Source of the DNA: Rhizophagus irregularis
Taxonomy: Eukaryota; Glomeromycota; Glomeromycetes; Glomerales; Glomeraceae
Direction: 5' to 3'
Assembly: GCF_026210795.1 (NCBI RefSeq)
Contig: NC_089444.1
Coordinates: 2,346,501-2,410,500, forward strand
Length of the DNA: 64,000 nt
Positions 28,521 through 64,000 of the stretch are shown in pieces (the stretch's first letter is position 1; each line of letters starts with the position of its first letter). A program made the position numbers and the translations under genes. The notes beneath the pieces were generated by a model. It worked only from the letters and a program-made list of their open reading frames with translations, was not told where the DNA came from and made no database searches.

Positions 28521-29090
28521 AATAGTTTCATTATATTTGAAACAATAAAAATTAAATCAGAAACAGGCTGTGAACCAAAACTATAATAATTCTTGTTTAC
28601 TAAATCAGAATTAAACATAGCTTATTGTGCGTTCTGATACAACGGATATATAACCAAGCGATGTTTATAACAGAAACGTAATAGGTAAGTAAATAACTAC
28701 CTTATATGTTTTATACAAAGGTTCACTATATTTATATAATAGAGTTTTGTTTTCACGATATAATCCCAAAAACTCTAGGGATATTTATTTATTAATGAAT
28801 TTATATATTTATCTTTTCTTATTAATTATTAAAATAATTTTATTAACTATTTATGTTATTTATTTATCTTTTTCATGAATTAAATATTTTCTAGAATAAT
28901 AAAAAATAAAAAGTTCTGTTTTAATTGTAAATATTGACATGTAAATAATAGATTCAAAGAGCCTACTAATAAATAAAATTAAAAAAATTAGTAAACGTTA
29001 TTAATAAAGAAATAAATATCCATAATTTTTTTCTGAAAAAAAAGCAAAATAAAAAAATAAAAATGGCAAGTCTCACAATGAAACTTACCG
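28521..29090. other. Spacer, nothing recognised
   Basis: AT-rich; no supported gene. Confidence 0.35.
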
Positions 29091-30290
29091 TTTTAAAAAT
29101 CCTTAACTTTTTCATCAATATCAATCATCCCTAATGAAATCTTACCCATCTAAAAAAAAGAAAATATTGAACATTAATAAACATTTTGTTAAAATCAATA
29201 AATTTTAAAAAAATTGGTTCCTATCAAAATCCTATTTGATCCCTTATAACTAATGTTCCCTAGCGTTTCTAATAAAAAAAAATATATGGTAGTCTCGCCC
29301 AGCCTACCATTTCTATACGCCTATAAAACAAAGAAAGGGATATTAGCAACGTCCCTAATATTAAAAAGTAAAAGAAATAAAAAAGACATAAGTTTTATAA
29401 AACTTACCATCTTTTAAAAATCTAAATCTCCAAAGACTCAAATCCCGAATCCTACAAATAAAAGAAAAGGAAACCATTAGAAAATGTTTCCCTAATGTAA
29501 AAAAATAAAAATTGTAAATTTGTTGTGAAACTTAACCAAATTCCTGAACTCGCCTTCTTCTTCAGGACTTTCACCTTTGGAGAGTTTGTCAAACTCTGAA
29601 TAATGACCTTCTTGGGTTGGTACTATCCAATATTCCTAAACATTGTCGTAACATAATCCAATTCCGCCTTAGAAAGGTACTTTTAATCCTCATATAGACT
29701 TCATCAATATTATAGATCTGTCTAAAAAGAAAAAAAATGAAATGTTAATAAGCATCTCGTTAAAATAAGCAAAAGAAAAATTTTTTTCCCACTAAATTCC
29801 CACGCATCCAAATACAATTTAATTTTATTAATCTCCAAGTTCTTTTCTTACTCTCAGTTATGGCTATTAAACATCAATGGCTTTCTTGATTGTGAAATTG
29901 ACTCAGCCTGATACTTCTTTGCCTATAACTTTGAACTGGACCTTCAAACAAAAAAAGAATAAAGGAAAAGTTAACAAACATTTCCTTAAATAAATCAGTA
30001 AATTTAAATTTTGCAATGAAAATGTGTGAAACTTACCAAATCCCAATTTGAACACCAGAACTGGTATCTAAAAAATTTGATAAAAAAAATAAATTTAAGT
30101 TTTGCAAGGAAAATGTTGTGAAACTTACCAAATTCCAAGTCAAACATTGGAAACAGAACCTAAAATTTTTAAAGAAACATTAGAAGACGTTTCTATTAAA
30201 AAAAAACAAAAAAAAAATTGAACTTAATAAAATGTTGCAAAACCTACTATTTCATTTCAAAGTTAGTTCCCAAGCTGAATACACTTGAAC
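29091..30290 (-). CDS. Possible mini-exon gene (tandem exon-intron units)
   Basis: Read on the minus strand, the region is a series of short exon-like blocks between (T/A)AG acceptors and GTAAGTTT(C)A donors: 30,290-30,248 (43 nt), 30,159-30,129 (31 nt), 30,067-30,037 (31 nt), a block near 29,941-29,825, one near 29,693 down, 29,635-29,537 (99 nt), one near 29,452-29,406, and a last near 29,142-29,091. The 99-nt block is fully open (EYWIVPTQEGHYSEF, then an acidic stretch). The two 31-nt exons and their following introns (GTAAGTTTCACA) are related copies. The last block reads MGKISLGMIDIDEKVKDF and then a stop. The complete chain and start codon were not resolved. The function is unknown; small secreted repeat proteins with mini-exons are one possibility. 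Confidence 0.4.
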
Positions 30291-30584
30291 CTATAAAAAA
30301 AAAGAGAAACATTAAAGACCACTTTTTTTAATAGGTTCTGAACATTTCTGTTCTTTTTTTATAAAAAATGTTATCTAAAGTCTGCCAAATCATCTGTGCA
30401 GCTTGATCAGCTGAAATGCATTCGGACGTGCAAATTTGTCATTCATGCGGTGATTGATCAACATATTTTTTTTTGCATAAATATTGTTACCTCAAACTAA
30501 TGTAAAAAAAAAAAAATTAATAAAGACGTTTAATTTAAAGAAAAATTCATCTTTTTTTTTCAGTTAGGGAGAACTTTGATAGTA
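30291..30584. promoter_or_regulatory. Spacer between two divergent mini/micro-exon arrays
   Basis: About 290 bases separate the minus-strand mini-exon blocks from the plus-strand ATG at 30,585. If both arrays are genes, this would be a shared divergent promoter. No specific motif seen. Confidence 0.3.
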
Positions 30585-30690
30585 ATGGCTTACAATAATG
30601 ATAAAGGTAAAGAGTTCATGAATATTTAATACAAATTAGAATTATTCTAAAATTTTAATCAAATTGCAATAAGTTTCAAGGAATCTGAAG
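30585..30690 (+). CDS. Candidate first exons ahead of the micro-exon array
   Basis: ATGGCTTACAATAATGATAA at 30,585 opens a 22-nt exon ending in AAAG before a GTAAAG donor (30,607). A second block, 30,674-30,690 (17 nt) if the acceptor is AATAAG, ends before GTAAAT. Joined they stay open and would leave the following array in phase 0. An alternative acceptor (30,681) gives an early stop. Tentative; transcript evidence would decide. Confidence 0.3.
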
Positions 30691-31301
30691 GTAAATAAAA
30701 TATATAAGTTAATTTATTAAATTTAATTTAACTATAAAATAACAATTATTTGTAAATAATTTATAGCATTTTATATAATAATGTAATATTCACATTAATT
30801 AAAACTATGTTCTTATTTATTAATTATATTAGATTATTTAGCTCGTAAGTAATAGTTACCTTATAATTAAATAATAATGGAATTACTTATTTTTGTTATA
30901 TTCCATGCATATAACTAAATATTTTAATGTTTTATATTTTATATAACTCAACTAATTATACATTCTTTATTTAAATGATTAGATTGTAAGTGACATATAT
31001 ATTTAATTATAGTATATACTTTTGTATTATATTTATATCTAACTAATTAATGATTAATAATACTACAGGGTGTAAGTTATTTGTTATTAAGATTTCTATT
31101 ATTTATATAATTTAAACTAATTAAATTCTTTATTTAAAAAATCATTTAATAATATAGCTTGTAAGTAATTTATTTAATTCTATTTTTATGTATTTAGGTA
31201 TTATTTACATTTAATTTAAACTAACTAAATTCTTTGTTTAAAAAAATTATTTAATAATGTAGTTCGTAAGTAGTTTATTTAATTCTATTATGTATAATTT
31301 A

Positions 31302-31493
31302 TTCATCACATGTGCGATGTCATTGCATGTCACACATGTCACACATGTCACACCCTGCTCTCTCTTTTTCATTTTTCATGTATTCTGGGAACAGAAATTT
31401 TTTGCTGTAAAAACTATTTTTCACACTTCTCTTTAAATGCCACGTGTATTATGTAATTTTGTCTGAAGGCAGTGCATCGCTATGAGTGATGAA
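31302..31493. mobile_element. MITE inserted in the micro-exon array
   Basis: Left TTCATCACATGTGCGATGTC. The right end, reverse-complemented, is TTCATCACTCATAGCGATGC. The composition (CACATGT repeats, CCTGCTCTCTC) differs sharply from the surrounding array units. Confidence 0.5.
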
Positions 31494-31996
31494 AAAATTC
31501 ATTTATATATATAATTTAATTTAACTAAATTAATTAAATTCTTTATTTAAAAAATTTAGAGAGTAAGTTATTAATTTAATTCCATTATTATATATTTATA
31601 TAATATTTACATACTAAAATTATTTAATAATATAGCTTGTAAGTTATCTATTTAATTTATTACTATTACACATTAATATAATATTTTATACATAATTTAT
31701 TTATTTAAAAATTATTTGGCAATTTCTTTTAGTTGGTAAGTTATAAGTTATTTTATTATTATGTCTGTATTTATATAATTTAAACTAATTAAATTCTTTA
31801 TTTAAAAAGCAAAATTATTTAATAATATAGAAAGTAAGTTATTTATTTAATTCTATTATTATGTATTTATATATATTTGCATATAATTTAAACTAACTAA
31901 ATTTATTACTTAAAAAATTATAGAAAGTAAGTTATTTATTTGATTTTATTATTGCATATTATATAATACATCAAGGGAATTGTTTTAAGTATAAAC

Positions 31997-32096
31997 CTGC
32001 AATAGGATGTAAATTTACATAAATTTGTGTTAAATATGTAAACTTATATAATTCATGTATTACGTATGTACTTAGGATTACATCCATTGCAGGGCT
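31997..32096. mobile_element. Short inverted-repeat element inserted in the array
   Basis: Left AACCTGCAATAGGATGTAAA; right TTACATCCATTGCAGGGC. The ends are complementary over about 18 bases with one indel. It sits between two array units. Confidence 0.5.
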
Positions 32097-33854
32097 ATGA
32101 TGCCTATGAATTTTTATATCTAAGATAATTTCTTACTTAAAAGATTGTTTAATAATATAGTTCGTAAGTTATTTAATTTAATCCTATTATATTATATATT
32201 ATATAATATTTACGTAAATTTTAAACTTTATTTAAAAATTATTTAAATATAGGAAGTAAGTTATTTATTTAATTCTTATTATTACATATTTATATAATAT
32301 TTATATATAATTTAAATTAACCAAATTCTTTTATTTAAAAAATTATTATTTAATAATATAGAAAGTAAGTTATTTATTTAATTCTATTATTAAATGCTTA
32401 TATAATATATAATTTAAACTAACCAAATTCTTTATTTAAAATATTATAGGGAGTAAGTCTATTATTATTTTATTTATATAATATTTATATAAAATTTAAG
32501 CTAACTAAATTCTTTATTTTAAAATTATTTAATAAAATAGCTCGTAAGTTATATTATTTATTTAATTCTATATTACGTATTTATATAATATTTATTATAA
32601 AAATTAATGAGGAAAAAACGGAAATTATCGTCGTAACCTTATATAATTTAAACTAACTAAATTCTAAATTATTTGGCAATCTATTTAGCTGATAGGTTAT
32701 AAATCATTTATTTATTACATGTTTAATAATATATATATATTAATTTAAACTAATTAAATTCTTTACTAAAAAATTATTTAACAATATAGTTTGTATGTTA
32801 TTTATTTAATTTATTATTATAATTATATAATATTTATACATAACTAAATTCTCTTTTTTAAAAATTATTTAAAAATCAAATAAATCAATATAGTAAAAAG
32901 TAAGTTATTTATTTAATTTTATTATATTTCTATTATTACATATTTATACAATATTTATAAATTATTTAAACTAATTAAATTCCTTATTTAAAAATTATTT
33001 GGTAATTTATTTAGCTGGCAAGTTATAAATTATTTATTTAATTTTATTATTATTACATATCTATATAATAATTTAAACTAACTAATTTCTTTATTTAATA
33101 AATTATTTAATAATATAGGAAGTAAGTTATTTATTTAATTTTATTGTTACATATTTATATATAATTTAAACTAACTATTTAAAAAATTATTTAATAATGT
33201 AGCTGGTAATATTCTATTATTGCATATTTCTATAATATATTAATTTCTAATTTATTATTTATATATAATTTAAACTAATTATTTATTAATAATATAGGGA
33301 GTAAGTTATTTATTTAATTTATTATTAAATAATTGTATAATATTTATATATAATTTAAACTAACTATTTATTAATAATATAGTTGTAAGTTATTTATTTA
33401 ATTCTATTATTATATATTTTTATAATATTTATATACAATTTAAACTAACTAAATTTTTATTTAAAAATTATTTAATAATGTAGTTGGTAAGGTTATTTAT
33501 TTAATTCTATTATTATATATTTTTACTAACTAAATTTTTATTAAAAAATTATTTAATAATGTAGCTAGTAAGGTTATTTATTTAATTCTATTATTATATA
33601 TTTTTACTAACTAAATTTTTATTTAAAAAATTATTTAATAATGTAGCTAGTAAGGTTATTTATTTAATTCTATTATTATATATTTTTACTAACTAAATTT
33701 TTATTTAAAAAATTATTTAATAATGTAGCTTGTAAGGTTATTTATTTAATTTTATTATAGCATATTTATATAATATTTATATATAATTTAAACTAACTAA
33801 ATATTTTTATTTAAAAAATTATTTAATAATATTATTTAATTCTATTATTATATA

Positions 33855-35455
33855 TTTTGTATACATGACTGTGTTGAATTTGGATCAGCTGATGCAAAAT
33901 GACGAAAAGAGGCTATCAAAGTCCGAACAATAGAAAATCTGCGTAAAAATCTTGGAGAAAGATATGAAATTTACATGGCAAGAACTACATTAAAAAGTTA
34001 CTTTTTACCTCATCAATCAAATTCACTTGCAGCAAAGGCACATCATCATTCAGCATGGGTTGCAGTTGCTGGAGTTTCGCGTACTGAAATGCGTGAACAT
34101 CTTGATAGCCATTATTGCCTTGCATCAGTAAAATGTGCGAAGCAATTTGCTAGCACTTTTGCAAATGTGTCAGTTATTATCTCCCAAGATGACAATGCAA
34201 AGATAGGACTTGGGTGCCTGCAGTAGGTCGCACATTCCGCACATTACAATCTGTTAACGAACCTACAACCATAGCAGACCATGATTTTCCTATGGGATTC
34301 AGACAAAATTAATCCCATCAGTGTATTTAATGATAACCCCAAGTGAATCCAATGATGAATTACAAACAGGAAGATTGGCAATTTTTGTACGTCCCCAATA
34401 GTCTCTTGGTACATCATCATTTACACATAGTCACATATGCAAGATCTGGAAAGCCTTTTATCAAATTCTCAATATGATTATGTGCTAAAAACCGATGAAA
34501 CAATACGGCCAATATGGATTTTATTAGTAGATGGAGGGCCAGATGAGAACCCTAGACACTTAAAAAATATAAAAATCTATTGTCAACTTTTTAAGAAATT
34601 TGATTTAGATTTTTTAAGTATACGAACCCATGCTCCAGATCAATCAAAATACAATCCAGTTGAAAGAGGCATGGCAACATTGTCCGGTAAACTTGCTGGT
34701 ATTACGTTGCCAATTGATCATTTTGGCACACATTTGGATTCACAAGGCAAAGTAATAGATGCAGAATTAGCCATTCAAAATTTTCGCTATTCAGGAGAAG
34801 CCCTTTGTGAACTTTGGCGCCGTGATTAATTTTTGGAAGGAAGGTTGATGCTAGTTATGCTGAGCACATGCAGTTTGAGGGGACAGAGAGAAAAAAGGTT
34901 GAGGAGTTAAAAAGAAAAGAAAAAGATCAAAAAAGATCAAATGACAGAAATAAAGAAGTAACACATACCCATCATCCTGATGAATGTTTTGTGCCATGAT
35001 CTTGGGTGCCATGATCTTGGATTCTCTTAATATCAAACGATGCACAAATGCAAGTTGCTGTGGACCACTCAGAGCCAAAGAAGCTATGGACTTTCTTCAT
35101 CTTTATAACGGCTTCTTACCACCAGTTACAAAGGCTAAAGATGGCCAATTCACAAACCCAATTCACCTTTTCAGTATGGAGATATTCCTGAAAATACCAG
35201 GTTATGATGCCCATTGTGAATCTATTGAAAAAAATACATATTTACGACTTTGCTGTCCTGTTTGTCAAAAGTATTTTCCCACTCTTACATTTTAGTAAGT
35301 CATAAACGTATAATGCATCCTACTACCCGTAGACGGCCTAGGAAATAACGAAATTCATCTTTTGATGATTTTTCTCTTCTTCCATCTCAACGAAAAAGGT
35401 CATATGATGAAATGGAACTTGAACCAAAGGCTTATAATTCGGATGAAGAATGAAA
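33855..35455 (+). pseudogene. DDE transposase with C-terminal C2H2 finger, broken
   Basis: Pieces in order: an N-terminal stretch up to SVIISQDDNAKIGLG (first Asp); a frameshift near 34,213; VPAVGRTFRTLQS to FPMGFRQ, with a second shift near 34,310; GRLAIFVRPQ then a TAG; 34,437-34,829 with ILLVDGGPDENPR (second Asp) and KYNPVERGMATLSGKLAG (Glu); another break at 34,829; a Lys/Glu-rich linker; then CTNASCCGPL and LCCPVCQKYFPTLTF with later SHKRIMH, which makes a C2H2 finger across a frameshift. The Asp-Asp-Glu pattern supports a DDE transposase; I do not name the superfamily. A 15-nt word GTGCCATGATCTTGG is doubled at about 34,992-35,021. It begins right where the micro-exon array ends. Confidence 0.65.
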
Positions 35456-37027: not shown

Positions 37028-38060
37028 GGAAGGAAAGGGGAATACGAAAGGGAAAAGGGATTACTAAAGGAAAGGGAATAACGAAAGGGAAAGGGGAATA
37101 CGAAAGGGAAAGGGGAATACGAAAGGGAAAGGGGAATACGAAAGGGAAAGGGGGATACGAAAGGGAAAGGGGAATACGAAAGGGAAAGGGGAATACGAAA
37201 GGGAAAGGGGAATACGAAAGGGAAAGGGGAATACGAAAGGGAAAGGGGAATACGAAAGGGAAAGGGGAATACGAAAGGGAAAGGGGAATACGAAAGGGAA
37301 AGGGGAATACGAAAGGGAAAGGGGAATACGAAAGGGAAAGGGGAATACGAAAGGGAAAGGGGAATACGAAAGGGAAAGGGGAATACGAAAGGGAAAGGGG
37401 AATACGAAAGGGAAAGGGGAATACGAAAGGGAAAGGGGAATACGAAAGGGAAAGGGGAATACGAGAGGGAAAGGGGAATACGAGAGGGAAAGGGGAGAAC
37501 GAGAGGGAAAGGTGTGAACGAGAGGGAAAGGGAGAACGAAAGGGAAAGGGGAATACGAAAGGGAAAGGGGAATACGAAAGGGAAAGGGGAATACGAAAAT
37601 GAAAGGGGAATACGAAAGGGAAAGGGGAATACGAAAGGGAAAGGGGAATACGAAAGGGAAAGGGGAATACGAAAGGGAAAGGGGAATACGAAAGGGAAAG
37701 GGGAATACGAGAGGGAAAGGGGAATACGAGAGGGAAAGGGGAATACGAGAGGGAAAGGGGAATACGAGAGGGAAAGGGGAATACGAGAGGGAAAGGGGAA
37801 TACGAAAGGGAAAGGGGAATACGAAAGGGAAAGGGGAATACGAGAGGGAAAGGGGAATACGAGAGGGAAAGGGGAATACGAGAGGGAAAGGGGAATACGA
37901 AAGGGAAAGGGGAATACGAAAGGGAAAGGGGAATACGAAAGGGAAAGGGGAATACGAAAGGGAAAGGGGAATACGAAAGGGAAAGGGGAATACGAAAGGA
38001 AAAGGGGAGAACGAAAGGAAAAGGGAAATATGAAAGGGAAAGGGGAGAACGAAAATACGA
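37028..38060. repeat. 19-bp purine-rich minisatellite, about 53 units
   Basis: Unit GAAAGGGAAAGGGGAATAC. A GAGAGGG variant clusters in blocks (about 37,460-37,530, 37,705-37,795 and 37,845-37,885). Because 19 is not a multiple of 3 and the unit lacks stops, most frames on both strands stay open (up to 397 codons on the minus strand) and read as 19-residue repeats. These are composition artefacts, not evidence of a gene. Strand asymmetry is extreme (nearly all purine on the plus strand). Confidence 0.9.
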
Positions 38061-38348: not shown

Positions 38349-39628
38349 CAGTGGTGTGCAAAAAAAATGACAATTTTTCAAGTCACGTTAATTTTTTAAC
38401 CAATAAACCAATCAAAAAATAAAAAGTTTTATTTTAAAGCTAAAACATAGTAGACTTTATTAAAAAAAATTAATATGGTATTCGTTCACCATTTCTGTCA
38501 ATAACCTCCCTACAACGTTGCGGCATTGAATTTACAAGATTAATTAGGAGGTTATTTGGAATTTTTACCCATTCTTCATGCAAAAAAACATCTAATTCAT
38601 TAAGATTTTTTGGTCTACGCAACTCTGTATTTCTCTTAACAATTGCCCAAAGGTTTTCTATGGGGTTTAGATCTGGACTATTGGATGGCCAGTCCATAAC
38701 CTCTGGGACATTATTTTTGAGAAATTCCTTAGCAACCCGACTAGTATGTTTAGGATCATTATCTTGTTGCAGCCGCCAACTATCTCCTAACATACTGTAC
38801 ACCTCTGGAATTTGTCTTTCTAATATTTTTGTGTAAAATTTTCCATCCATTATACCCCTAAAACAAAAAAGACTTGTTTTACCTCTTATGCAAAAACCAC
38901 CCCATGCAAAAATTTTACTTCGGTCTTTTGGTATGGGACGAATTGGCCGTTGTTTTTTATACCAATGTCTTACTGTGTTGCGGAATAGCTGGAAAGCTGT
39001 CTCATCACTAAATAAAGTATTTTGCCAGTCATCATTCATGTGATTTTGTGCCCATTCAATACGTTTATGCTTATGGGCTGGAGTAAGCATTGGTGTAGCA
39101 AGGGGGAGTGCATTTTTGTATCCGTGACTGGTCAAATACCTTGAAACTGTTGAGCGAGAGACGTTAACACCAACATCTTCCAATTTGGCAGCAATGAACT
39201 TGGCGGTAATTGTGGGTTTTCTTCGAATATATTGTCCAATTTCACGAGCAGCCTTTTGCGTTATTTTACTAATACGTCCATTGCCACCTCTATGTTTCAC
39301 ATCTCCGGTTTTTTTGATTTTTTTAAGGTTCCTATATATTGTCCTAAGTGGTATCTTTGTCAAAGAATGAATTTTGGCGGCAGTACGTATTCCTTGCCTC
39401 CAGAATTGTAATATCGTTTGTCTTTGAGTTTCTTGCTTAGATAGTGGCATTTTATACGGTTAATAAAATACAATTTTATTATATATGGAAAAAAATTTTT
39501 CGTTAAAAAATAAAGTAATCACGGGGCTTTCATACGCATATTTATTTGTGTAGATACGACTAAAATCGGATAAGTTATGCCTGCTGATCATTACTCAAAA
39601 AAATTGTCATTTTTTTTGCACACCACTG
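38349..39628 (-). mobile_element. Tc1/mariner transposon, apparently complete
   Basis: The ends are perfect inverted repeats of about 30 bases starting CAGTGGTGTGCAAAAAAAAT, flanked by TA on both sides (38,347-38,348 and 39,629-39,630). 1,280 bp with one intact transposase on the minus strand. Confidence 0.93.
38470..39450 (-). CDS. Tc1/mariner transposase, DD34E, intact
   Basis: 326 residues. Helix-turn-helix DNA-binding region at about residues 1-110 (KIPLRTIYRNLKKI, a GNGRISK linker, a second HTH around VSRSTVSRYL). The catalytic core has Asp in LFSDETAF, Asp in LQQDNDPKHTS and Glu in SPDLNPIENLW, with 34 residues between the second Asp and the Glu. It ends with VNSMPQRCREVI, the usual Tc1 C-terminal motif. 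No stops or frameshifts; it lies inside perfect inverted repeats, so it may be recently active. Start: the Met directly after the 5' leader. Confidence 0.93.
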   Translation of the reverse strand: MPLSKQETQRQTILQFWRQGIRTAAKIHSLTKIPLRTIYRNLKKIKKTGDVKHRGGNGRISKITQKAAREIGQYIRRKPTITAKFIAAKLEDVGVNVSRSTVSRYLTSHGYKNALPLATPMLTPAHKHKRIEWAQNHMNDDWQNTLFSDETAFQLFRNTVRHWYKKQRPIRPIPKDRSKIFAWGGFCIRGKTSLFCFRGIMDGKFYTKILERQIPEVYSMLGDSWRLQQDNDPKHTSRVAKEFLKNNVPEVMDWPSNSPDLNPIENLWAIVKRNTELRRPKNLNELDVFLHEEWVKIPNNLLINLVNSMPQRCREVIDRNGERIPY

Positions 39629-49138: not shown

Positions 49139-52100
49139 TCATTTGAAACTAATTGGAATTGCACAACTATCCAAACTTTGAGAATTAATATAATCGTCAT
49201 CACATTTTAGAAGATCTTTTGTAAAAGGATTAAGTAATCGAGATGTATAAATAGCTTGTGGATGGGTAACTGTTTGGTAATCTTCAATGGATATAAGATT
49301 TGCTTTTCTATATTCTTCAGCTTTTTTGAATTGCATATCTAAGTCATCTTCTATAAAGAAATCATTCCAATATGGTTTATAAAATGATGAAATCAATTCA
49401 CCTATTTTAATAATATTTGGTCTATTGCTTGGATTTAAATCCCAACACTTTTTCATTAAATTAATGTAACATTTTGGTACTTCTAGCTCATTTATTTCGG
49501 GTCTAACTCCTTTGCAAATATCCAATGCTAAATCATAATCATGTGCACGATTGCCAAAAGGTTGTCTTCCAGTTGCTACAAAATACATCATCATACTAAA
49601 ACTGTAGATATCTGCTGCTTGAGTATAACCCTTTCCTCTTAATACTTCAGGAGCCACATAAGGCATAACTCCATAAATTTTTGTTTCATCTATATTACCA
49701 ACTTTTCCACATAATCCCATATCTGAAATTGATATATAATTACTAAAATAATTTATACTTCTTAAAAATAAAATATTTCCTGAATGAAAATCACGATGAA
49801 CTATATTTTTTTGATGAATTTCTTTAAAGCCATTAATAATATTAAATAATACAGATATTTTATCTTTCCAATTAAAAAGTTTTATAATTTTCATTTATCC
49901 AATGATTAAAATTGCCTTCTTTTGCATATTGGAGAACTATAATACATTCTTTTGTATCTGGATTTTGAGATATTCCATATATATTAAGAACATTACTTCC
50001 TTTATTTATTGAGTATTCTTTAACCTATTAAATAAATTAATAGCAAAAAATAATTATTAAAATTAAGAAACCTATTCTTATATTTTTTTAAAGAAGTCCA
50101 TACCTCATTTAAAAACTCATCGGTAATACTGTTTTGGGAATTATGCAAACATTTCAAGGCAATTACTTTGTTTGGATTCCTATTATAAATATTTTTAGCT
50201 GTATCATATTCTAATAGACCATCCTTCCATCTTGCTGAATATACTGTAGAAAAGCCACCTTTACCTACTTCTTTAATTTCATTAAACTGGCTGTATGGTA
50301 TCCATTCAAATATTATATCATTATAATCATTTATTTTTAATTGCATTTTTTGAATGAAATCATCAATTTTTTCATTTCCACTTGTCCAATTTGCTAAGTT
50401 TATAGAACCATTTTGAACAAAAATATAATTTCCTGTATCTGGATTTTGAGATATTCCATACAATACTTGAAATGCTTTATGTTTTATTGGATATTCTTTA
50501 GCCTAAATATAAGACTGTAAATATATTAATTAACAAAAATACTTAAATATTTAGAAATTTTATACCTCATTTATTAAAAAATCAATGGATTCTTGTGATT
50601 TATATAAGCATTTTAAAGCAACTTTTTTATTTGAATCCCTAGTATAATATTTATAATTTTCATTATAACATAATAGACCATCTTTCCATATTGCTGAATA
50701 TACTGTCATAAGGCCATTTTTGCCTATTTCCTTAATTTCATTAAACTGATTGTATGGTATCCATTCAAGTACCGTATCATCATAATTATTAATTTCTAAT
50801 TGCTTTTTTTGAATGAAATCATCAATTTTTTTATTTTCACTAATCAATATATAATTATTTTGAACAAAAATATAATCTCCTGTATTTGGATTTTGAGATA
50901 GTCCATACAATATTTGAAATGCTTTATGTTTTGTCAGAAATTTTTTAGCCTAATATAAATAAAAAAGGTTGTAAGTATATTAATTAAAAAATAAGTATTT
51001 AAATACTTGAAGAAATTCCATACCTCATTTATTAAAGAATCAATGGATTCTTGTGAATTATGTAAATATTTTAAAGCAATTTTTTTATTTGAATCTCTTT
51101 TATATTCACCTTCCTGATATTCATAACGTCATGGACCATCCTTCCATATTGCCGAATATACTGTTATAAGGCCATTTTTGCCTATTTTCTTAATTTCATT
51201 AAACTGATTGTATGGTATCCATTCAAGTACTATACTATCCTCATATTTATTAATATTTAATTGTCTTTTCTGAATGAAATCATCAATATTTTCATTTTCA
51301 CTAATCCATATATAATTATTTTGAACTAAAATGTAGTTTTCTGTATCTGGATTCTGAGATATTCCATACAATAATTGAAATGCTTCATGCTTTACTGGAT
51401 ATTTTTTAGCCTAAATAAAAGAGTGAGATTGTAAATATATTAGTAATTAAAAAAAGTATTTAAATATTTGAAGAAATTTCATACCTCATTTATTAAAAAA
51501 TCAATAGATTCTTGTGAATTATGTAAATATTTTAAAGCAACTTTTTTATTTGAATTTCTTTTATATTCACCTTCCTGATTTTTATAGTATAATGGACCAT
51601 CCTTCCATATTGCTGAATATACTGTAATAAGGCCATTTTTGCCTGTCTCTTTAATTTCATTAAACTGATTGTATGGTATCCATTCAAGTACTATATCATT
51701 ATAGTTATTAATTGTTAATTGCCTTTTGTAAATGAAGTCATCAATTTTTTCATTTCCACTAGTCCATATATAATTATTTTGAATAAAAATATAATCTCCT
51801 GTATCAGGATCTTGAGATATTCCATATAATGCTTGAAATGCTTTATATTTTGTTGGATATTTTTTAGCCTAATTATAAATAAATAAAATTGTAAATATAT
51901 TAAATATATTAATTAAAAAAAAATATTTAAATATTTAAAGAAATTTTATACCTCATTTATTAAAAAATTAGTGGATTCTTGTGAATTATATAAGCATTTT
52001 AAAGTTACTATTTTATTTGAATCTCTTTTATATTCATCTTCCTGATATTTATAACATAATGGACCATCATTCCATATTGCTGAATATACTGTTATAAGGC

Positions 52101-53654
52101 CATTTTTGCCTATTTTCTTAATTTCATTAAAACGATTGTATGGTATCCATTCAAGTACTATATCATTATGGTCATTTAAACTTAATTGCCTTTCTTGGAT
52201 GAAATTATCAATTTTTTCATTTCCACTTGTCCAGATAAAAACTAAAATATAATCTCCTGTATCTGGATTTTGAGATATTCCATAAAATGCTTTATGCTTT
52301 GTTGGATACTTTTTAGTCTAAATGTAAATAAAAGAAATTGTAAATATATTAATTAAAAAAGTATTTAAATTTTTAAAAATTTCATACCTCATTTATTAAA
52401 AAATCAATAGATTCTTGTAAATTATGTAAATATTTTAAAGCAACTTTTTTATTTGAATTTCTTTTATATTCACCTTCCTGATATTTATAGTATAATGGAC
52501 CATCCTTCCATATTGCTGAATATACTGTTATAAGGCCATTTTTGCCTGTCTTTTCGATTTTATTAAACTGATTGTATGGTATCCATTCAAGTACTATATC
52601 ATTATGGTCATTTATTCTTAATTGCCTTTCTTGAATGTAATCATCAATTTTTTCATTTCCACTTATCCATATATAATTATTTTGAACAATAATATAATCT
52701 CCTGTATCTGGATTTTGAGATATTCCATACAGTGTTTGGATTGCTTGATGGTTTGTTGGGTAATTTCTAGCCTAGATATAAATAAATGAAATTGTTATTG
52801 TATTAATTAAAAAAAAAGCATTTATATATTTGAAGAAGTTCATACCTCATTTATTAAAGAATTAATGGATTCTTGTGAATTATGTAAATATTTTAAAGCA
52901 ACTTTTTTATTTGAATTTCTTTTATATTCACCTTCCTGATATTTATAGTATAATGGACCATCCTTCCATATTGCTGAATATACTGTTGTAAGGCCATTTT
53001 TGCCTGTCTTCTCAATTTCATTAAACTGATTGTATGGTATCCATTCAAGTACTATATCATTATGGTCATTTATTCTTAATTGCCTTTCTTGAATGTAATC
53101 ATCAATTTTTTCATTTCCACTTGTCCATATATAATTATTTTGAACAATAATATAATCTCCTGTATCTGGATTTTGAGATATTCCATACAGTGTTTGGATT
53201 GCTTGATGGTTTGTTGGGTAATTTCTAGCCTAGATATAAATAAATGAGATTGTGATTGTATTAATTAAAAAAAAAGCATTTGCATATTTGAAGAAGTTCA
53301 TACCTCATTTATTAAAGAATTAATGGACTCTTGTGAATTATATAAGCATTTTAAAGCAACTTTTTTACTTGAATTTCTTTTATATTCACCTTCCTGATAT
53401 TCATAACGTAATGGACCATCCTTCCATATTGCTGAATATACTGTAATAGTGCCATTTTTGCCTTCCTCTCTAATTTCATTAAACTGATTGTATGGTATCC
53501 ATTCAAGCACTATATCATCATAGTTATTAATTTTTAATTGCCTTTCTTGAATGAAATTATCAATTTTTTCATTTCCACTGGTCCAATTTGTAAAATTGGT
53601 TTCTAAATATTTTAAAATATTATCACTTGTCAAAGGTATATTTTGAGAAAACAT
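49139..53654 (-). pseudogene. Multi-N-lobe tyrosine-kinase-like gene, eight N-lobe modules, two lesions
   Basis: Nine phase-0 exons (minus): 53654-53304, 53229-52846, 52771-52388, 52317-51952, 51868-51485, 51410-51024, 50949-50566, 50502-50104, 50024-49139. Exon 1 starts MFSQNIPLTSD. Each of exons 1-8 ends with linker WTSGNEKIDDFIQ, EWIPYNQFNEI, a glycine-loop equivalent, VYSAIWKDGP, VALKCL and LINE. Exons 2-9 begin with the hinge part (YGISQNPDTxxYI). Exon 9 holds the catalytic lobe: HRDFHSGN, SDMGLCG, VAPEVLRG, ADIYSFSM, then a tail with THPQAIYTSRLL. Only exon 8 has an intact loop (GKGGFSTVY); earlier ones read GKNGxxTVY. Lesions: TGA at 51,129-51,131 in exon 6 (TTA in sister modules) and one extra T in a T5 run (49,874-49,878) that shifts the frame before the catalytic lobe. 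Confidence 0.8.
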
Positions 53655-54081: not shown

Positions 54082-55403
54082 CACTACTTGGAAAAAAGTA
54101 GGCGGACACCATATTTATTAATTACTCAAAAACGTACATAATAAGTGGGGTCAAAATTTTAAATTTTATTAGTTAAACCATATACAAAACTAATATTTAG
54201 TTGGCCATCCATTATTCTTAATACACGCCTCAACCCTGCGTGGCATACTTTCAATTAAATTAATTAACGTATTATTAGGAATTTGATTCCATTCTTCATG
54301 TAAAGCACACTCCAATTCTCTCACATTTTTTGCAGGATTGGGACGTTTTCTAATGCGCCTTTCCAGCTCTGACCATAGGTGCTCGATAGGATTTAAGTCA
54401 GGTGACTGACTCGGCCAATTTTCTAAAATTTTAACCTTTTTTGTTTCTATCCATTTTTTAACATTTTTAGCGGTGTGGACAGGGGCGTTATCATCTTGGA
54501 ATAAATAACCTCATCCATTATAATTATTATTAATAAATGGAAGTAAATGTGATTCGAGTATTTGTATATAGTCACGATGGTTCATTTTACCATTAATTTT
54601 TATTAGCGGCCCTAACCCCTTTCCTGAGAAACAACCCCACATCATTACACCTCCACCACCGTGTTTTATTGAAGGAACCATGTTTTTAACATTAAACCTT
54701 GTTCCGGGGGTTCTCCAAACACGACCTGGACCATCATTTTTAAATATAGTAAAGCGGCTTTCATCGCTCCAAATAACTGACTTCCATTTTCTAACAGACC
54801 AGTCTTTCCTTTCAATACACCAGTTTAAACGATTTTCTCTTTATTTATCATTAAGAAGAGGTTTGAATGCTGGAATACGTGAAAAAATATTAAGTTCATG
54901 CAAATTTTTCCTTATAGTCTTGGTAGTAACTTGTAGTCCTGTTTTCTCTTGAAAATTATTTTTTATTTGTTCAGCTGATTGACGATTATTTGTTTTGACA
55001 ATTTTTTTTAATGTTTTTTGGTGTTGGCAATTTAAAAGTTTAGGACGACCACTTCGTGGCTGAGTTTCAAGACTTTTTCCTTCACAAAAGATTTGAATAG
55101 TTCGGTAAACTGCTGTTCTAGAAAAGCCAAGCATTTTAATAATTTTTTGTCTGGTGGCGCCACCTTTAAATAGACCAATAATCTGGTTGCGTTCAGCTTC
55201 CGTTAAATCATACATGGTGCGAAGTAGTACAAAATCCTAATTTGTCGATCACATTTGATGGTTGTCTATAAATGAAATAACAATTACGTCATTGTTTATT
55301 TATACCATAAACTATCACGTGATAAAATTTCAGCCCAAATTATTATGTACATCTTGGAGTAATTAATAAAATATGACGTCCGCCTACTTTTTTCCAAGTA
55401 GTG
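54082..55403 (-). mobile_element. Tc1/mariner transposon, second family, decayed
   Basis: The ends are inverted repeats starting CACTACTTGGAAAAAAGTAG then GCGGAC, with TA on both sides (54,080-54,081 and 55,404-55,405). 1,322 bp with one broken transposase. Confidence 0.9.
54190..55215 (-). pseudogene. Tc1/mariner transposase, DD35E spacing, two stops
   Basis: The N-terminal part (MYDLTEAERNQIIGLFKGGA; HTH SRTAVYRTIQ; GRPKLL hook) is open to a TAA at 54,841-54,843. Past it the same frame continues with WSDESRFTIF (Asp), a TGA at 54,511-54,513, FQDDNAPVHTA (Asp), SPDLNPIEHLW (Glu) and ESMPRRVEACI, ending at TAG 54,190-54,192. I count 35 residues between the second Asp and the Glu, against 34 in the other two transposases of this window. 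Both lesions are single-codon changes, so decay looks recent. Confidence 0.87.
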
Positions 55404-58425: not shown

Positions 58426-59712
58426 CAGTCGGGTCCGAAAGTGACGCCCGATTTTGTACGGTGTTACGATACACAAAATTTACATTATTTATACCCCTTT
58501 TTTTATTTTTAAATGTTTTTCTCACAATTTCATAACCTAATAAACGCGTTGCAAAGTTAAAAAAATAATGTCACATAGAACTGAGTTAACTTCTCAAGAT
58601 AAAGGAAAAATACTAGCATATATGGAGAATTTTAACCCTGCACAAATAGCAAGAAAAATTGGTCGTGACCCCACCACAATAAGAAGAATTATTGACAGAT
58701 ACAAGAAGACAGGGAAAACTGAAAATTTACCTAGATCGGGGCGTCCACCTGCTCTCAATAATAATGAGAAAAATGCACTCATAAACAAAGTTACACAAGA
58801 TCGACGCGAACCTTTACATGAAGTCATTAATACATTAGATTTAAATTGCAGCCTTACAACTGCTAAAAGAGCATTACATAGTGTTGGAATTTATTCCCAT
58901 GTTGCTGCAAAAAAACCCTTTATCTCAGAAAAGCATGCATTAGCTCGTATTAGTTGGTGTGAAAAATATAAAGAAAAAACAGCTTATGATTGGGCACAAG
59001 TTATTTTCTCAGATGAATCAAGTGTTGAGATTGGCAAGCAGTCACGACAAATAAGAGTTTGGAGACACACAGGGGAAAGGTTTAACACTGAATGCTTGAC
59101 ACCTATCTTTAAAAGTGGTCGAAAATCAGTCATGGTTTGGGGATGTTTTGCAGGAGGGATAAAAGGGCCATTAATTTTTTGTGATGAAAATAAAGAAGGA
59201 AATGAAAAAATCAATTCAAATACTTACATTAGAATCCTAAATTCATATCTGTATCCATTTCAGCATACAGTTCATGAGTTAACAGGAAGGGCTGCAATTT
59301 TTCAACAGGATAATGCACCCATACATACCGCGAAAATAACCAAGGATTGGTTGAAGAAGAATAAAATTGTGGTTATTGATTGGCCGGCAAATTTTCCCGA
59401 TCTAAATCCAATAGAAAACATCTGGAAGCAGTTAAAGGACAATATCCAGAGTTGTAAAGTCTTTCCAAGAACTGTGGATGAACTTAAAGTTGCACTAAGT
59501 GAAGAATGGGAAAATTTGGATTGCTCCATTTTTGAAGAGGTTGTTGCTTCAATGCCACAAAGAATAAATGCAGTACTAGAAGCAAGGGGAGGGCCAACAC
59601 ATTATTAACCATTTTTAGTAATTATTTTTTATGTGAATTTTAATGAAAATCAATAAAGTTTTGCCATTTTTGGCATTAATTTTAAATCGGGCGTCACTTT
59701 CGGACGTGACTG
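58426..59712 (+). mobile_element. Tc1/mariner transposon, third family, apparently complete
   Basis: The ends are inverted repeats of about 30 bases (left CAGTCGGGTCCGAAAGTGAC; right reverse-complemented CAGTCACGTCCGAAAGTGAC, then GCCCGATTT) with TA on both sides (58,424-58,425 and 59,713-59,714). 1,287 bp with one intact transposase. Confidence 0.93.
58568..59608 (+). CDS. Tc1/mariner transposase, DD34E, intact
   Basis: 346 residues. Paired HTH region at about residues 1-110 (NPAQIARKIGRDPTTIRRII; linker GRPPAL; second HTH TTAKRALHSVGIYS). Catalytic residues: Asp in VIFSDESSVEIG, Asp in IFQQDNAPIHTA and Glu in FPDLNPIENIW, 34 residues apart between the last two. WGCFAGGIKGPL and VVASMPQRINAVL are standard family motifs. 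No lesions. It differs clearly in sequence and ends from the transposon at 38-39 kb. Confidence 0.93.
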   Translation: MSHRTELTSQDKGKILAYMENFNPAQIARKIGRDPTTIRRIIDRYKKTGKTENLPRSGRPPALNNNEKNALINKVTQDRREPLHEVINTLDLNCSLTTAKRALHSVGIYSHVAAKKPFISEKHALARISWCEKYKEKTAYDWAQVIFSDESSVEIGKQSRQIRVWRHTGERFNTECLTPIFKSGRKSVMVWGCFAGGIKGPLIFCDENKEGNEKINSNTYIRILNSYLYPFQHTVHELTGRAAIFQQDNAPIHTAKITKDWLKKNKIVVIDWPANFPDLNPIENIWKQLKDNIQSCKVFPRTVDELKVALSEEWENLDCSIFEEVVASMPQRINAVLEARGGPTHY

Positions 59713-60039: not shown

Positions 60040-63000
60040 TTAAATTTTGCAATCTAAGCATTCAGAGTTATAATCATCATCATTATCATTATAGTTTGGA
60101 AGGTCCTTTGTAAAAGGGTAAAGTAATCGAGATATATAAATAGCCTGTGGATGAGTAGCTGCTTTATAATCTTTAATGGATGAAAGATTTGCACTTGCTT
60201 TTCTGTATTCCTCTGCTTCCTTAAATTGTGTTTCAATTTCTTCATTTTCTACTATGAAAATATCCCCTCCATAAGACTTACGAAATGATAAAATTAATTC
60301 ATTTATTTCAATAATACTTGGTCTATTGTTAGGATTTGAGTCCAAACACTTTTTCATTAAATCAATATAACATTTTGGTGCTTCTGGCTCATTTAATTCA
60401 GGTCTATTTCCATTACAAATATCTAATGCAAGAAATTCATCATGTGCACGATTGTAAAAAGGTTGTCTTCCAGTTGCAATAAAATACATTATCATACCAA
60501 AACTATAGATATCTGCTGCTTGAGTAAAGGCCTTTCCTCTTAATACTTCAGGAGCTACATAAGGCATAACTCCATAAATATTTTTTTCGTCTACATAACC
60601 AACTTCACCACATAATCCCATATCTGAAATTAATATACAATTGCTAAAATCATCTATACTACTTAAAAATAATATATTTCCTGAATGAAAATCACGATGA
60701 ACTATTTGTTTTTGATGGATTTCAGTAAGACCATTAATAATCTTACATAATACAGACAATTTATTTTGCCAGATGAAATATTCATAATTTTCATTCATCC
60801 AATTATTAAAATTTCCATCCTTTGCATAATCAAGAATCAAAATATAATCTTTTGTATCAGGATTTTGAGATATTCCATATATATTAGTGATATTACTTCC
60901 CTTAGTTATTGAATATTCTTTAGCCTATTAAAATAAATTGATTGAAATAAAAGATAATATATTACTTACTAAATTAAGTTCACAGAAAAAAATAATTTAT
61001 TACAAATAATCTTTTAAAAAATTTCATACCTCATTTAAAAATTTGTTGGTAATATTTTGTGAATTATGTAAACATTTTAAGGCAATTACTCTATTTGGAT
61101 CATTCCTTTTATATGTCTTTTCATCAGCAAAATATTCTAATGGACCATCTTTCCAATTTGCAGAATATACTATAGCAAAACCACCTTTACCTATTTCATT
61201 AATATTATTAAACTGATTGTATGGTATCCATTCAAATACTATATCTTCATAGCTATCTAACTTTAATTGCATTTCTTGAACAAAATCATCAATTTTTTCA
61301 TTTCCACTGATCCAATTTGCTAAATTTAAGTAATTATTCTTGATTAAAATATAATCATTTGTATTTGGATTTTGAGATATTCCATACAATAACATAAATG
61401 CTCCATTTTTTGTTAAATATTTTTTAGCCTGAAATATAAATAAAAAAGATCATCATAGTTAGCAATTTATTAAATTAAAAAAGCATTTAAAAATATTTAA
61501 GAAAAACGTTATACCTCTTTTATTAGGGATTCAACGGAATTCTGTGTGTTTTGTAAATATTTTAAAGAAACTTCTTTGTTTGGATCCCTTGTATAATCAA
61601 TGCTATTTTGGTCATCATAATATAATGGACCATCCTTCCATATTGCTGAATATATTGAAATAGAAGTATTTTTGCCAATTTCTTTAATTTCATTAAGTTG
61701 ATCGTATGGTACCCATTCAAAAACTGAATCTTTATTTGTACTCATTTTTAATTGCATTTCTTTAATGAAATCATCAATTTTTTCATTTCCACTTGCCCAT
61801 GCAATAACTAAAATATAATCATTTGTATTCAAATTTTGAGATATTCCGTATATGTCACAAATTTCTCTTTCAAATTTTGTTGCAAAATATTTTTCAGCCT
61901 AGTAATATATCATAAATAAAGAAATTAATATATTTTATTAAAAAATAATAAATATTTGTAAAAAATTATACCTCATTTATTAGGAAATCAATGGAATTCT
62001 CTGAACTATGCAAATATTTTAAAGCAACTTTTTCATTTGAATATCTTGTATATTTATCTTTCAAATTATTATAATATATTGGACCATCCTTCCATATTGC
62101 CGAATATACTGTTATCAAATCATTTTCACTTACTTTTTTAATTTCATTAAGTCGATTATAAGGTATCCATTCAAATATTATATTTGTGTTAAAATTTATT
62201 TCTTGAATGAAATTATCAATTTTTTTATTTTCACTCACTGACATAAAATTATTTAAAACTAAAACATAATCATTTGTATTTGGATTTTGAGATATTCCAT
62301 ATATATCAAAAATTTCTTTACTAAATTCATTTATTAAATATTTTTCAGCCTATATATAATATATGAGAAATTAATATAATGCATAAAAAAATTACAAAAA
62401 ATATCTGTATAAATTATATACCTCATTTCTTACAATTTCAATAGTATTCTGTGAGCCATGCAAACATCTTAAAGCAACTTCTAAATTTGAATCTCTTGTA
62501 TAATTTCTACAATTCTTATTACGATATAATGGACCATCCTTCCATATTGCTGAATATATTGAAATAAAACTACTTTTGTCTATTTCTTTAATTTCATTAA
62601 GTTGATTGTATGGTATCCATTCAAATACTGTATTTTCATATGCACCCATCATTTTTATATGCATTTCTTGAATGAATTCATCAATTTTTTCATTTCCACT
62701 TTCCCAGATATAATTATTTAGAACCAAAATATAATCATTTGTTTCTGGATTTTGAGATATTCCATATATAACAAAATCCCTTATACCAAAAGTACTTTTT
62801 GAATATTCTACAACCTAAAATAGATGAAGAATTAATATATTTTAATAAAAAAGTATTAAAGAGATTATACAAATTTAATACCTTATTTATAACAAATTCA
62901 ATAGTATTTTGTGAGTTATATAGATATTTTAAAGCAACTGCTTTATTTGAAACTCTTGAGTAATTACTATACTCTTTATCTTTATTATAATATAATGGAC

Positions 63001-64000
63001 CATCCTTCCATATTGCTGAATATATTGTTATAGAACCATTTTTACCTATCTCTTTAATTTCATTAAGCTGATTGTATGGTATCCATTCAAATAGATTATC
63101 TTTATATGATGATTCTTTCATTTTTAATTGCATTTTTTGAATGAAATCATCAATTTTTTTATATCCACTTTCCCAGATAAAATTGCTTAGAACAAAAATA
63201 TAATCATTTGTATCTGGATTTTGGGATATTCCATATATAATGTAAATATCTTTATAACCATAAGTATTTATTAAATATTTTTCAGCCTAAAATAAATAAT
63301 AAATTAATATTATAATAAAAAAAGTATTAAAGATATTATATAAATTATATACCTCACTTATTACAAAATCAATAGTACTATGTGAATTATGTAAACATTT
63401 TAAAACAACTTCCTTATTTGGATTTCTTCCATAATTACTATAAAGTAATGGACCATCCTTCCATATTGCTGAATATGCTGTTATAGAATCATTTTTGCCT
63501 ATCTCTTTAAATTCATAAATCTGGTTGTATGGTATCCATTCAAATAATACATTTGACTTATATAATGATTGCATTTTTTGAATAAAATTATCAATTTTTT
63601 TATTTCCATTTTCCCAGAAAAAATTGCTTAAAACCAAAATATAATCATTTGTATCTGGATTTTGAGATATTCCATATAAAACAAAAATACTTCCGTCATA
63701 AATATTTGTTAAATAATTCTCAGCCTAAAATAAATGAGAAATTAATAATATATTATAATAAAAAGTATTAAAGAAAGCATATAAATTTTATACCTTATTT
63801 ATTACAAAATCAATAGCACTTTGTGAGTTATGTAAATATTTAAAAGTAACTTCTTTATTCGGATTTCTTGTATAACTTGTAGAATAACTAACAAAATATT
63901 TATAATTATAACATAATGGACCATCCATCCAAATTGCTGAATATACTGTTATAGAACCATTTTTGCCTATCTCTTTAATTTCATCAAACTGATTGTATGG
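60040..64000 (-). CDS. Multi-N-lobe tyrosine-kinase-like gene, at least seven N-lobe modules, cut by window edge
   Basis: Minus-strand phase-0 exons from the 3' end: 60924-60040 (hinge and catalytic lobe, 294 residues + stop), 61428-61030, 61898-61515, 62349-61972, 62814-62422, 63286-62882, 63724-63353, and a partial one ending at 63794. All lengths are multiples of three and every exon is open. The catalytic exon has HRDFHSGN, SDMGLCG (DMG for DFG), YVAPEVLRG, AADIYSFGM, the RP of GNRPELN, and a tail with THPQAIYISRLL. Module loops: GKGGFAIVY next to the catalytic lobe; then GKNTSISIY, SENDLITVY, DKSSFISIY, GKNGSITIY, GKNDSITAY, GKNGSITVY. The ATP-site Lys is kept in most (ALK) but is Arg in the fourth (VALR). 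Likely an active kinase with degenerate N-lobe repeats. The 5' end is not seen. Confidence 0.85.

Follow-up and report, generated by a model that had tools for sequence, protein, structure and literature searches.

The micro-exon genes of schistosomes contain numerous short internal exons whose lengths are multiples of 3 nt, and genes of this type are made up mostly of micro-exons and encode a small secreted protein with a signal peptide. Recursive splicing proceeds through ratchet points, at which an acceptor and a donor lie nearly back to back and nothing is retained between them. The aphid bicycle effector genes form a fast-evolving family with many very short exons (PMC9168663), Drosophila homothorax has a single alternative 3-nt exon between two introns (PMC7392893), and Arabidopsis APC11 has a constitutive 1-nt exon that fixes the reading frame (PMC4674806).

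In the current study, we analysed a window (the whole stretch of DNA under study, 64,000 nucleotides) from contig 16 of a ~147-Mb (146.7-Mb), 32-contig assembly of Rhizophagus irregularis. The window carries a tandem array of small introns separated by 3-nt spacers, and 33 further stretches of the genome carry related arrays and, judged from their sequences, belong to one kinase family in this fungus. We hold it very probable that the tandem unit of intron plus 3-nt exon constitutes a hypervariable N-terminal segment of these kinases and is spliced through in order. The exon-length rule of schistosome micro-exon genes extends to this family in large part: of the 970 units called, 940 have 3 nt, seven have 6 nt and one has 9 nt, while 22 units of 1 nt break the rule. 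The small secreted product does not extend to it, since the predicted product is a kinase of 400 to 508 aa with an acidic N-terminus, of which the array encodes a minority. As in recursive-splicing ratchets, acceptor and donor almost adjoin and are probably used serially; unlike zero-length recursive exons, however, each step would keep three bases, and these are under coding constraint. The kinase arrays resemble the schistosome and bicycle genes (PMC9168663) in evolving rapidly and having many tiny exons, and differ from both in that nearly all exons are exactly 3 nt, the units are near-identical and in tandem, and the product is a kinase. Where homothorax has one alternative 3-nt exon (PMC7392893), the decoded stretches here contain 8 to 78 consecutive ones, apparently all included; and in distinction to APC11 (PMC4674806), the 1-nt exon here comes at the end of a series of 3-nt exons, and a single codon would be drawn from three exons. 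Among the matches listed in a literature search that excluded preprints and most subscription papers, there was no description of tandem arrays of one-codon exons. We rate this gene architecture as categorically new, its component parts being known.

Sequence reading and pattern scans place 27 units of AG, spacer and donor at 30842-33731 on the forward strand, 26 from the unit list and one, CTG|GTAATA at 33203, from a separate scan. The spacer is 3 nt in 25 of the 27, 6 nt in one (TAAAAA, 32894) and 2 nt in one (TT, 33383). An earlier note on this DNA had described an array of about this size with nearly all spacers of 3 nt, one of 6 and one of 2, and both the array and these lengths are borne out. 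Twenty-one of the 3-nt units have a GTAAG donor and the remaining ones read TTT|GTATG, CTG|GCAAG, CTG|GTAAT and CTG|ATAGG; the CTG at 32689 is a 3-nt unit whose GT donor has been lost. In the window as a whole, the forward strand has 23 instances of AG-N3-GTAAG (21 of them inside the array) and the reverse strand has one, and the pattern ATTTAATAATRTAGNNNGTAAG, allowing up to 3 mismatches, has 15 matches against 0.50 expected and a maximum of 3 in 100 shuffles. The features of the window copy are as follows.

30585..30606, forward strand: exon 1 of the window copy, ATGGCTTACAATAATGATAAAG, which reads MAYNNDK and ends in phase 1
30674..30690, forward strand: exon 2 remnant of 17 nt, from an AAG acceptor to GTAAAT, breaking the phase that intact members keep (by-eye comparison with exon 2 of relatives)
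30842..33731, forward strand: tandem array of 3-nt (25), one 6-nt and one 2-nt exons, with TAG/CAG acceptors and GTAAGT-like donors
30842..30844, forward strand: first micro-exon, CTC, the family's commonest first micro-exon (decoded chains, landmark search)
30983..31071, forward strand: micro-exons ATT and GGT, present as a pair near the array start in most relatives
31290..31500, forward strand: foreign-looking stretch within one array intron (by eye)
31960..32110, forward strand: second foreign-looking stretch within an array intron (by eye)
33383..33384, forward strand: 2-nt unit TT, which breaks the frame (scans)
33484..33731, forward strand: four 82-nt units, almost identical to one another (97% matches), with TTG, CTA, CTA and CTT as their three bases
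33732..33862, forward strand: array end, a degenerate unit lacking TAG (sequence reading)

The same kind of unit is abundant in the genome. Pattern TTTAATAATRTAGNNNGTAAG gave 1262+1257 matches, against 163+152 with the reversed pattern; as it comes within two mismatches of only 310 of the 940 decoded 3-nt units, the total may run to several thousand units, roughly extrapolated from a sample that was not random. A first-exon landmark had 89 matches (5 in the control) and a landmark for the terminal 1-nt exon had 78 exact matches, the latter being too loose at three mismatches (255 versus 160 in the control). Among the matches listed, at least 64 of the 91 kinase loci with a strong match to a family protein have the terminal landmark 325-505 nt upstream, and the closest proteins are from Rhizophagus irregularis. 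Thirty-nine regions, comprising first-listed matches and paired landmarks and hence not a random set, were decoded with a position-weight chain in which the exon letters were never scored. Five with fewer than six units (L012, L013, L023, L027 and L028) were dropped, and L017 and L018 were joined, to give the 33 stretches; of these, L026 and L025 are adjacent and are probably one gene. In each of the five dropped regions, only a single unit or a few lie close to a pattern or landmark match, and these are possible solo remnants away from long arrays.

Across the 33 stretches, the usual gene order is an ATG-bearing exon 1, an acidic exon 2 (missing in some), the array, the 1-nt exon and the kinase exons. 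Within the array, the micro-exons usually run CTC, then TCA, TTG or TTA, then ATG (with a CAG acceptor), ATT, GGT, a variable run, CTT, TTG and finally a single base. The 3-nt exons number 78 in the joined L017/L018, 61 in L025 and 20 in L026, and repeated multi-exon blocks are visible in L017 and L040. Although the chain caller penalises lengths other than 3 nt, a regular expression open to 0-60 nt agrees that 3 nt dominates in long arrays. Introns have a median length of 96 nt, and CTAAY is found in 587 of the 868 introns of 140 nt or less, compared with 234 after shuffling. The 1-nt exon was included in 22 of the 33 chains; its base is A in 19 of these, and C, G and T occur once each. The encoded array peptide mostly starts A-L-N/D/S-D-W and is then gene-specific, with Arg, Asp, Asn, Trp, Leu, Phe and Tyr as its commonest residues. 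A Pfam kinase domain (PF07714/PF00069) was found in both of the assembled proteins that were scanned, at 142 and 139 bits against a cut-off of 23.1 for PF07714.

The reading frame on either side of the arrays bears directly on whether anything of them is kept. Exon 1 ends in phase 1 in all 30 arrays for which our script found it, the window included, and exons 1 and 2 together end in phase 1 in 22 of 23, as found by a script without phase preference (superseding one that had given 22 of 24 with candidates ranked towards phase 1). In the exception, L041, exon 2 contains a stop in its regular frame. On the other side, the kinase exon requires phase 2 in 26 of 27 genes, again with no phase preference, the exception being L032. 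This count comes from our first script; a stricter script for the kinase exon start found 7 of 34, with an offset of 1 modulo 3 in six and of 0 in L032, and in L033 it chose a wrong acceptor in the same frame. Because phase 1 plus 3n plus 1 gives phase 2, the 1-nt exon exactly fills the need of the kinase exon, and one codon (mostly GAA) would thus be assembled from three exons. It is very improbable, in our judgement, that the array is instead a satellite-bearing intron of which no trinucleotide is retained, whether it is excised in one piece or by ratchet steps. The back-to-back AG|GT sites do look like ratchet points, and public protein models do cross the gap with other short sequences, but direct joining conflicts with the phases on the two sides of the array (1 on entry, 2 on exit), and it leaves the order-specific avoidance of stops and the faster change of the three bases, both described below, without a reason. 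The earlier note had offered stepwise removal as one reading, and this part of it falls, since the flanking phases and the stop avoidance require exons; its other element, mini-introns around frame-neutral 3-nt exons, describes how the units behave.

Assembly of whole genes was attempted by script at 21 loci. The kinase exon was not found in one, and 12 of the other 20 give an open reading of 400-508 aa into the kinase. Exon 1 was not part of the assembly in six of these 20, including L036 and L044, which are both full readings, and the printed peptide of L037 is short of one unit that the chain missed. Eight of the 20 lack a full reading, partly because the script missed exons. The readings of L029, L034 and L046 stop because the second kinase exon was not located, units were missed in L039, and L032 has its kinase exon joined out of frame; L035 has a phase-1 stop in the array, and the readings of L011 and L041 break late in the kinase.

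If 3-nt exons are read in phase 1, a stop codon arises at a junction when an exon ending in T is followed, across an intron of ~96 nt, by one beginning AA, AG or GA. We counted such stops in pairs of units no more than 140 nt apart in 32 stretches, leaving out the window and L025, and found one in 786 forward junctions, whereas 5000 shuffles of exon order gave a mean of 24.2 and a minimum of 12. The deficit holds when L025 is kept (1 of 835 versus 26.3 in 1000 shuffles), when units are defined by a strict regular expression (1 of 704 versus 22.3) and when unique ordered pairs are counted (1 of 642); 31 of the 32 stretches have no such stop. Put another way, AA, AG or GA comes next after 1 of 211 T-ending exons and after 102 of 575 other exons (Fisher 4.6e-14). 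With one exon skipped, 17 stops are found in 706 junctions (21.3 expected), with two skipped, 24 in 630 (18.7 expected), and with the exon order reversed, 28 in 786, about what chance would give. The avoidance is limited to immediate forward neighbours, so the exons are apparently joined consecutively and in order, not combinatorially. Neighbouring exons thus appear to be spliced together in this order and translated, the pattern of stops being otherwise hard to explain.

These counts also weigh on a combinatorial cassette, in which differing subsets of micro-exons would yield many isoforms per gene. The earlier note had raised this in the form of any subset of single-codon exons, and skipping would in principle be tolerable, as every 3-nt exon is frame-neutral. 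However, the junctions that skipping would create show no significant avoidance of stops, and the near-absence of stops is confined to direct neighbours read forwards; we therefore regard such a cassette as unlikely.

Reading the arrays in phase 2 was tried and rejected, as it gives 139 stops in 786 junctions. The composition of the three exon columns fits phase 1 best (summed KL 0.93, versus 1.42 for phase 0 and 1.40 for phase 2), with a poor fit to codon usage in the phase-1 wobble column (KL 0.66).

Public protein models give a mixed picture of this region. The array peptide start AL[NDS]D[WY] is found in none of the best 120 of 880 public homologues, a search with the region gave no array peptide in its seven matches, and the longest match of array peptides to the same 120 models is a trivial 7 residues. 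The gap is filled by three residues (DGK) in P0001 and, in P0002, by a longer string that is not array peptide. By our interpretation of the strings, 7 of the 120 listed models (two of them from R. clarus) read to the A of the 1-nt exon, with a junction of the ..LEFGKS type, and 15 have an SKFGKS-type junction that fits a 5-nt version of this exon. The last intron thus seems to be used in public models, with the array missing or distorted there. As these models bridge the gap with other short sequences, the variable region of the kinase family has seemingly escaped annotation. Five predicted kinases (P0025, P0042, P0071, P0104 and P0107) carry strings rich in G, I, L and M ahead of the kinase, which look like phase-0 readings of such arrays. 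A genome search for an intron-less copy gave no exact or one-mismatch match, and 16 two-mismatch matches versus 10 in the control; viral contigs gave no exact match.

The SKFGKS-type junctions and the G/I/L/M-rich strings would suit a reading in which the exons are likewise joined in order, but in phase 0, and in which the last exon is 5 nt (AGTAA) instead of 1 nt. Stops in phase 0 are also few, 3 in 879 exons against 24.4 (minimum 10) when columns are shuffled. In our reading, this scarcity follows incidentally from the preference for T and G as middle bases, although the phase-0 frame may be in some use. Against phase 0, exons 1 and 2 enter the array in phase 1, it is only in phase 1 that stops are avoided at the junctions, and L036 and L040, which both have open kinases in phase 1, contain TGA exons (two of them in L040). 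Moreover, among the exons ATC is as common as ATT and TTG is commoner than TTA, unlike a wobble position in this AT-rich genome. Phase 0 as the main frame is accordingly a reading to which we give very little weight. The observation in the earlier note that no 3-nt spacer is a stop is correct for the window, but it was made in the wrong frame, the family being read in phase 1 and having TGA exons elsewhere.

Exon and intron bases differ markedly in how fast they change. To define recent duplicates, we required that the even-numbered flank bases match at 95% or more, which gave 142 pairs that are not independent of one another. In these pairs, exon bases differ at 87 of 426 positions (0.204) and the held-out, odd-numbered, non-signal intron bases at 125 of 3408 (0.037); with parity swapped, the values are 77 of 423 (0.182) and 143 of 3525 (0.041). 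Exon bases are thus about five times more divergent than intron bases in recently duplicated units, and the check proposed in the earlier note, a comparison of the three bases with their flanks, shows the three bases to be the more variable in these duplicates. A first held-out test on indel-prone flanks gave a small excess (0.38-0.42 versus 0.30-0.37, and 0.21-0.26 versus 0.18-0.22), because distant flanks were compared ungapped. By exon position, the rates in the first parity set are 0.246, 0.085 and 0.282, the second position being the phase-1 wobble base. Of the 65 pairs whose exons differ, 47 differ by a single base, while random exon pairs within an array mostly differ at two or three.

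The array segment is hypervariable and probably under diversifying selection on its amino acids. A less favoured account, to which we allow a real but minor chance, is that the faster change of the three bases reflects local hypermutation, or homogenisation of introns by gene conversion around old exons, and not selection. It would fit with the wobble base, which at 0.085 still exceeds the held-out introns at 0.037. However, the rate of change at codon positions 1 and 2 is about threefold that of the wobble base, and single-base differences dominate, unlike in random within-array pairs.

The window itself does not hold an intact member. Exon 1 and the array are present and, read from the unit list, the array has no phase-1 stop ahead of the 2-nt unit. 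The two micro-exons that separate CTC from ATT in relatives are absent, however, and the array has one lost donor, one GC donor, the 2-nt unit and the two foreign-looking intron stretches. Neither a 1-nt exon nor a kinase exon was found 3′ of the array on the same strand, and tblastn of two family kinases against the window matched kinases solely on the reverse strand, at 49-64 kb. Because of the 17-nt, frame-breaking exon 2, the 2-nt unit and the lack of a 1-nt and a kinase exon, we take the window copy to be a relic: it belongs to the large kinase family but has decayed and lacks the kinase.

On its 3′ side the array borders, by eye, on a degraded stretch resembling a mobile element; interrupted open frames at 33870-35450 (forward strand) are a possible mobile element directly 3′ of the array, and the one of these frames that was tested had no Pfam match. 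Just upstream of the array, at 28900-30340 on the reverse strand, a series of short exon-like stretches is bounded by polypyrimidine acceptors and GTAAGTTT donors and may belong to another gene composed of many small exons. The reverse-strand kinases at 49-64 kb are like the family in their kinase domain and in the SGN..ID.FI..WIPY start of the kinase region, and unlike it in that no micro-exon array was seen upstream and several have tandem repeats resembling N-lobes. Two of these kinase loci, at 50212-53579 and 61510-64000 (reverse strand), have tandem repeats of ~458 bp and ~441 bp, whose open frames of ~130 aa resemble kinase N-lobes and stand ahead of one C-lobe. Elsewhere in the window are frames for Tc1/mariner-type transposases at 38470-39459 (reverse), 54841-55236 (reverse) and 58544-59608 (forward), all three with HTH_Tnp_Tc3_2 and the first and last also with DDE_3, and a 19-bp minisatellite of ~54 copies at 37032-38054 that is open in several frames on both strands.

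How might such arrays be expressed? In our proposal, every unit of an intact pre-mRNA would be spliced through in order, the first two bases of each 3-nt exon would complete one codon and its third would begin the following one, and the final 1-nt exon would set the register with the kinase exon. Introns would probably be removed serially, 5′ to 3′, in a manner resembling recursive splicing, with each removal adding three bases to a normal upstream exon, because two splice sites with 3 nt between them are unlikely to be occupied at once. Since each unit is frame-neutral, gain or loss of units and point changes would alter the peptide codon by codon, with no frameshift. The variable segment may have a role in recognition or binding, perhaps recognition by a sensor kinase, which is a guess. 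One tentative, and to our minds rather less than even, possibility is that the array acts as a codon-by-codon generator of diversity, an intron-exon minisatellite through which kinases gain, lose or rewrite single codons and so build a repertoire, for example for recognition of self and non-self or of partners. Were this true, the spliceosome would have to be capable of joining as many as ~80 3-nt exons in a row, with a 1-nt exon besides.

Should splicing be borne out, a single mRNA would contain dozens of 3-nt exons in succession as well as a 1-nt exon, far past the single tiny exons of homothorax and APC11 (PMC7392893, PMC4674806). This raises the questions of how the spliceosome handles 3-nt exons in series and of what the kinases of the family recognise. 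Rhizophagus irregularis is a major symbiotic fungus of plant roots, and the seemingly unannotated variable region of its large kinase family would, if our reading is true, represent a new route to a hypervariable protein segment, in which introns act as the repeat unit that grows and shrinks, leaving the frame intact.
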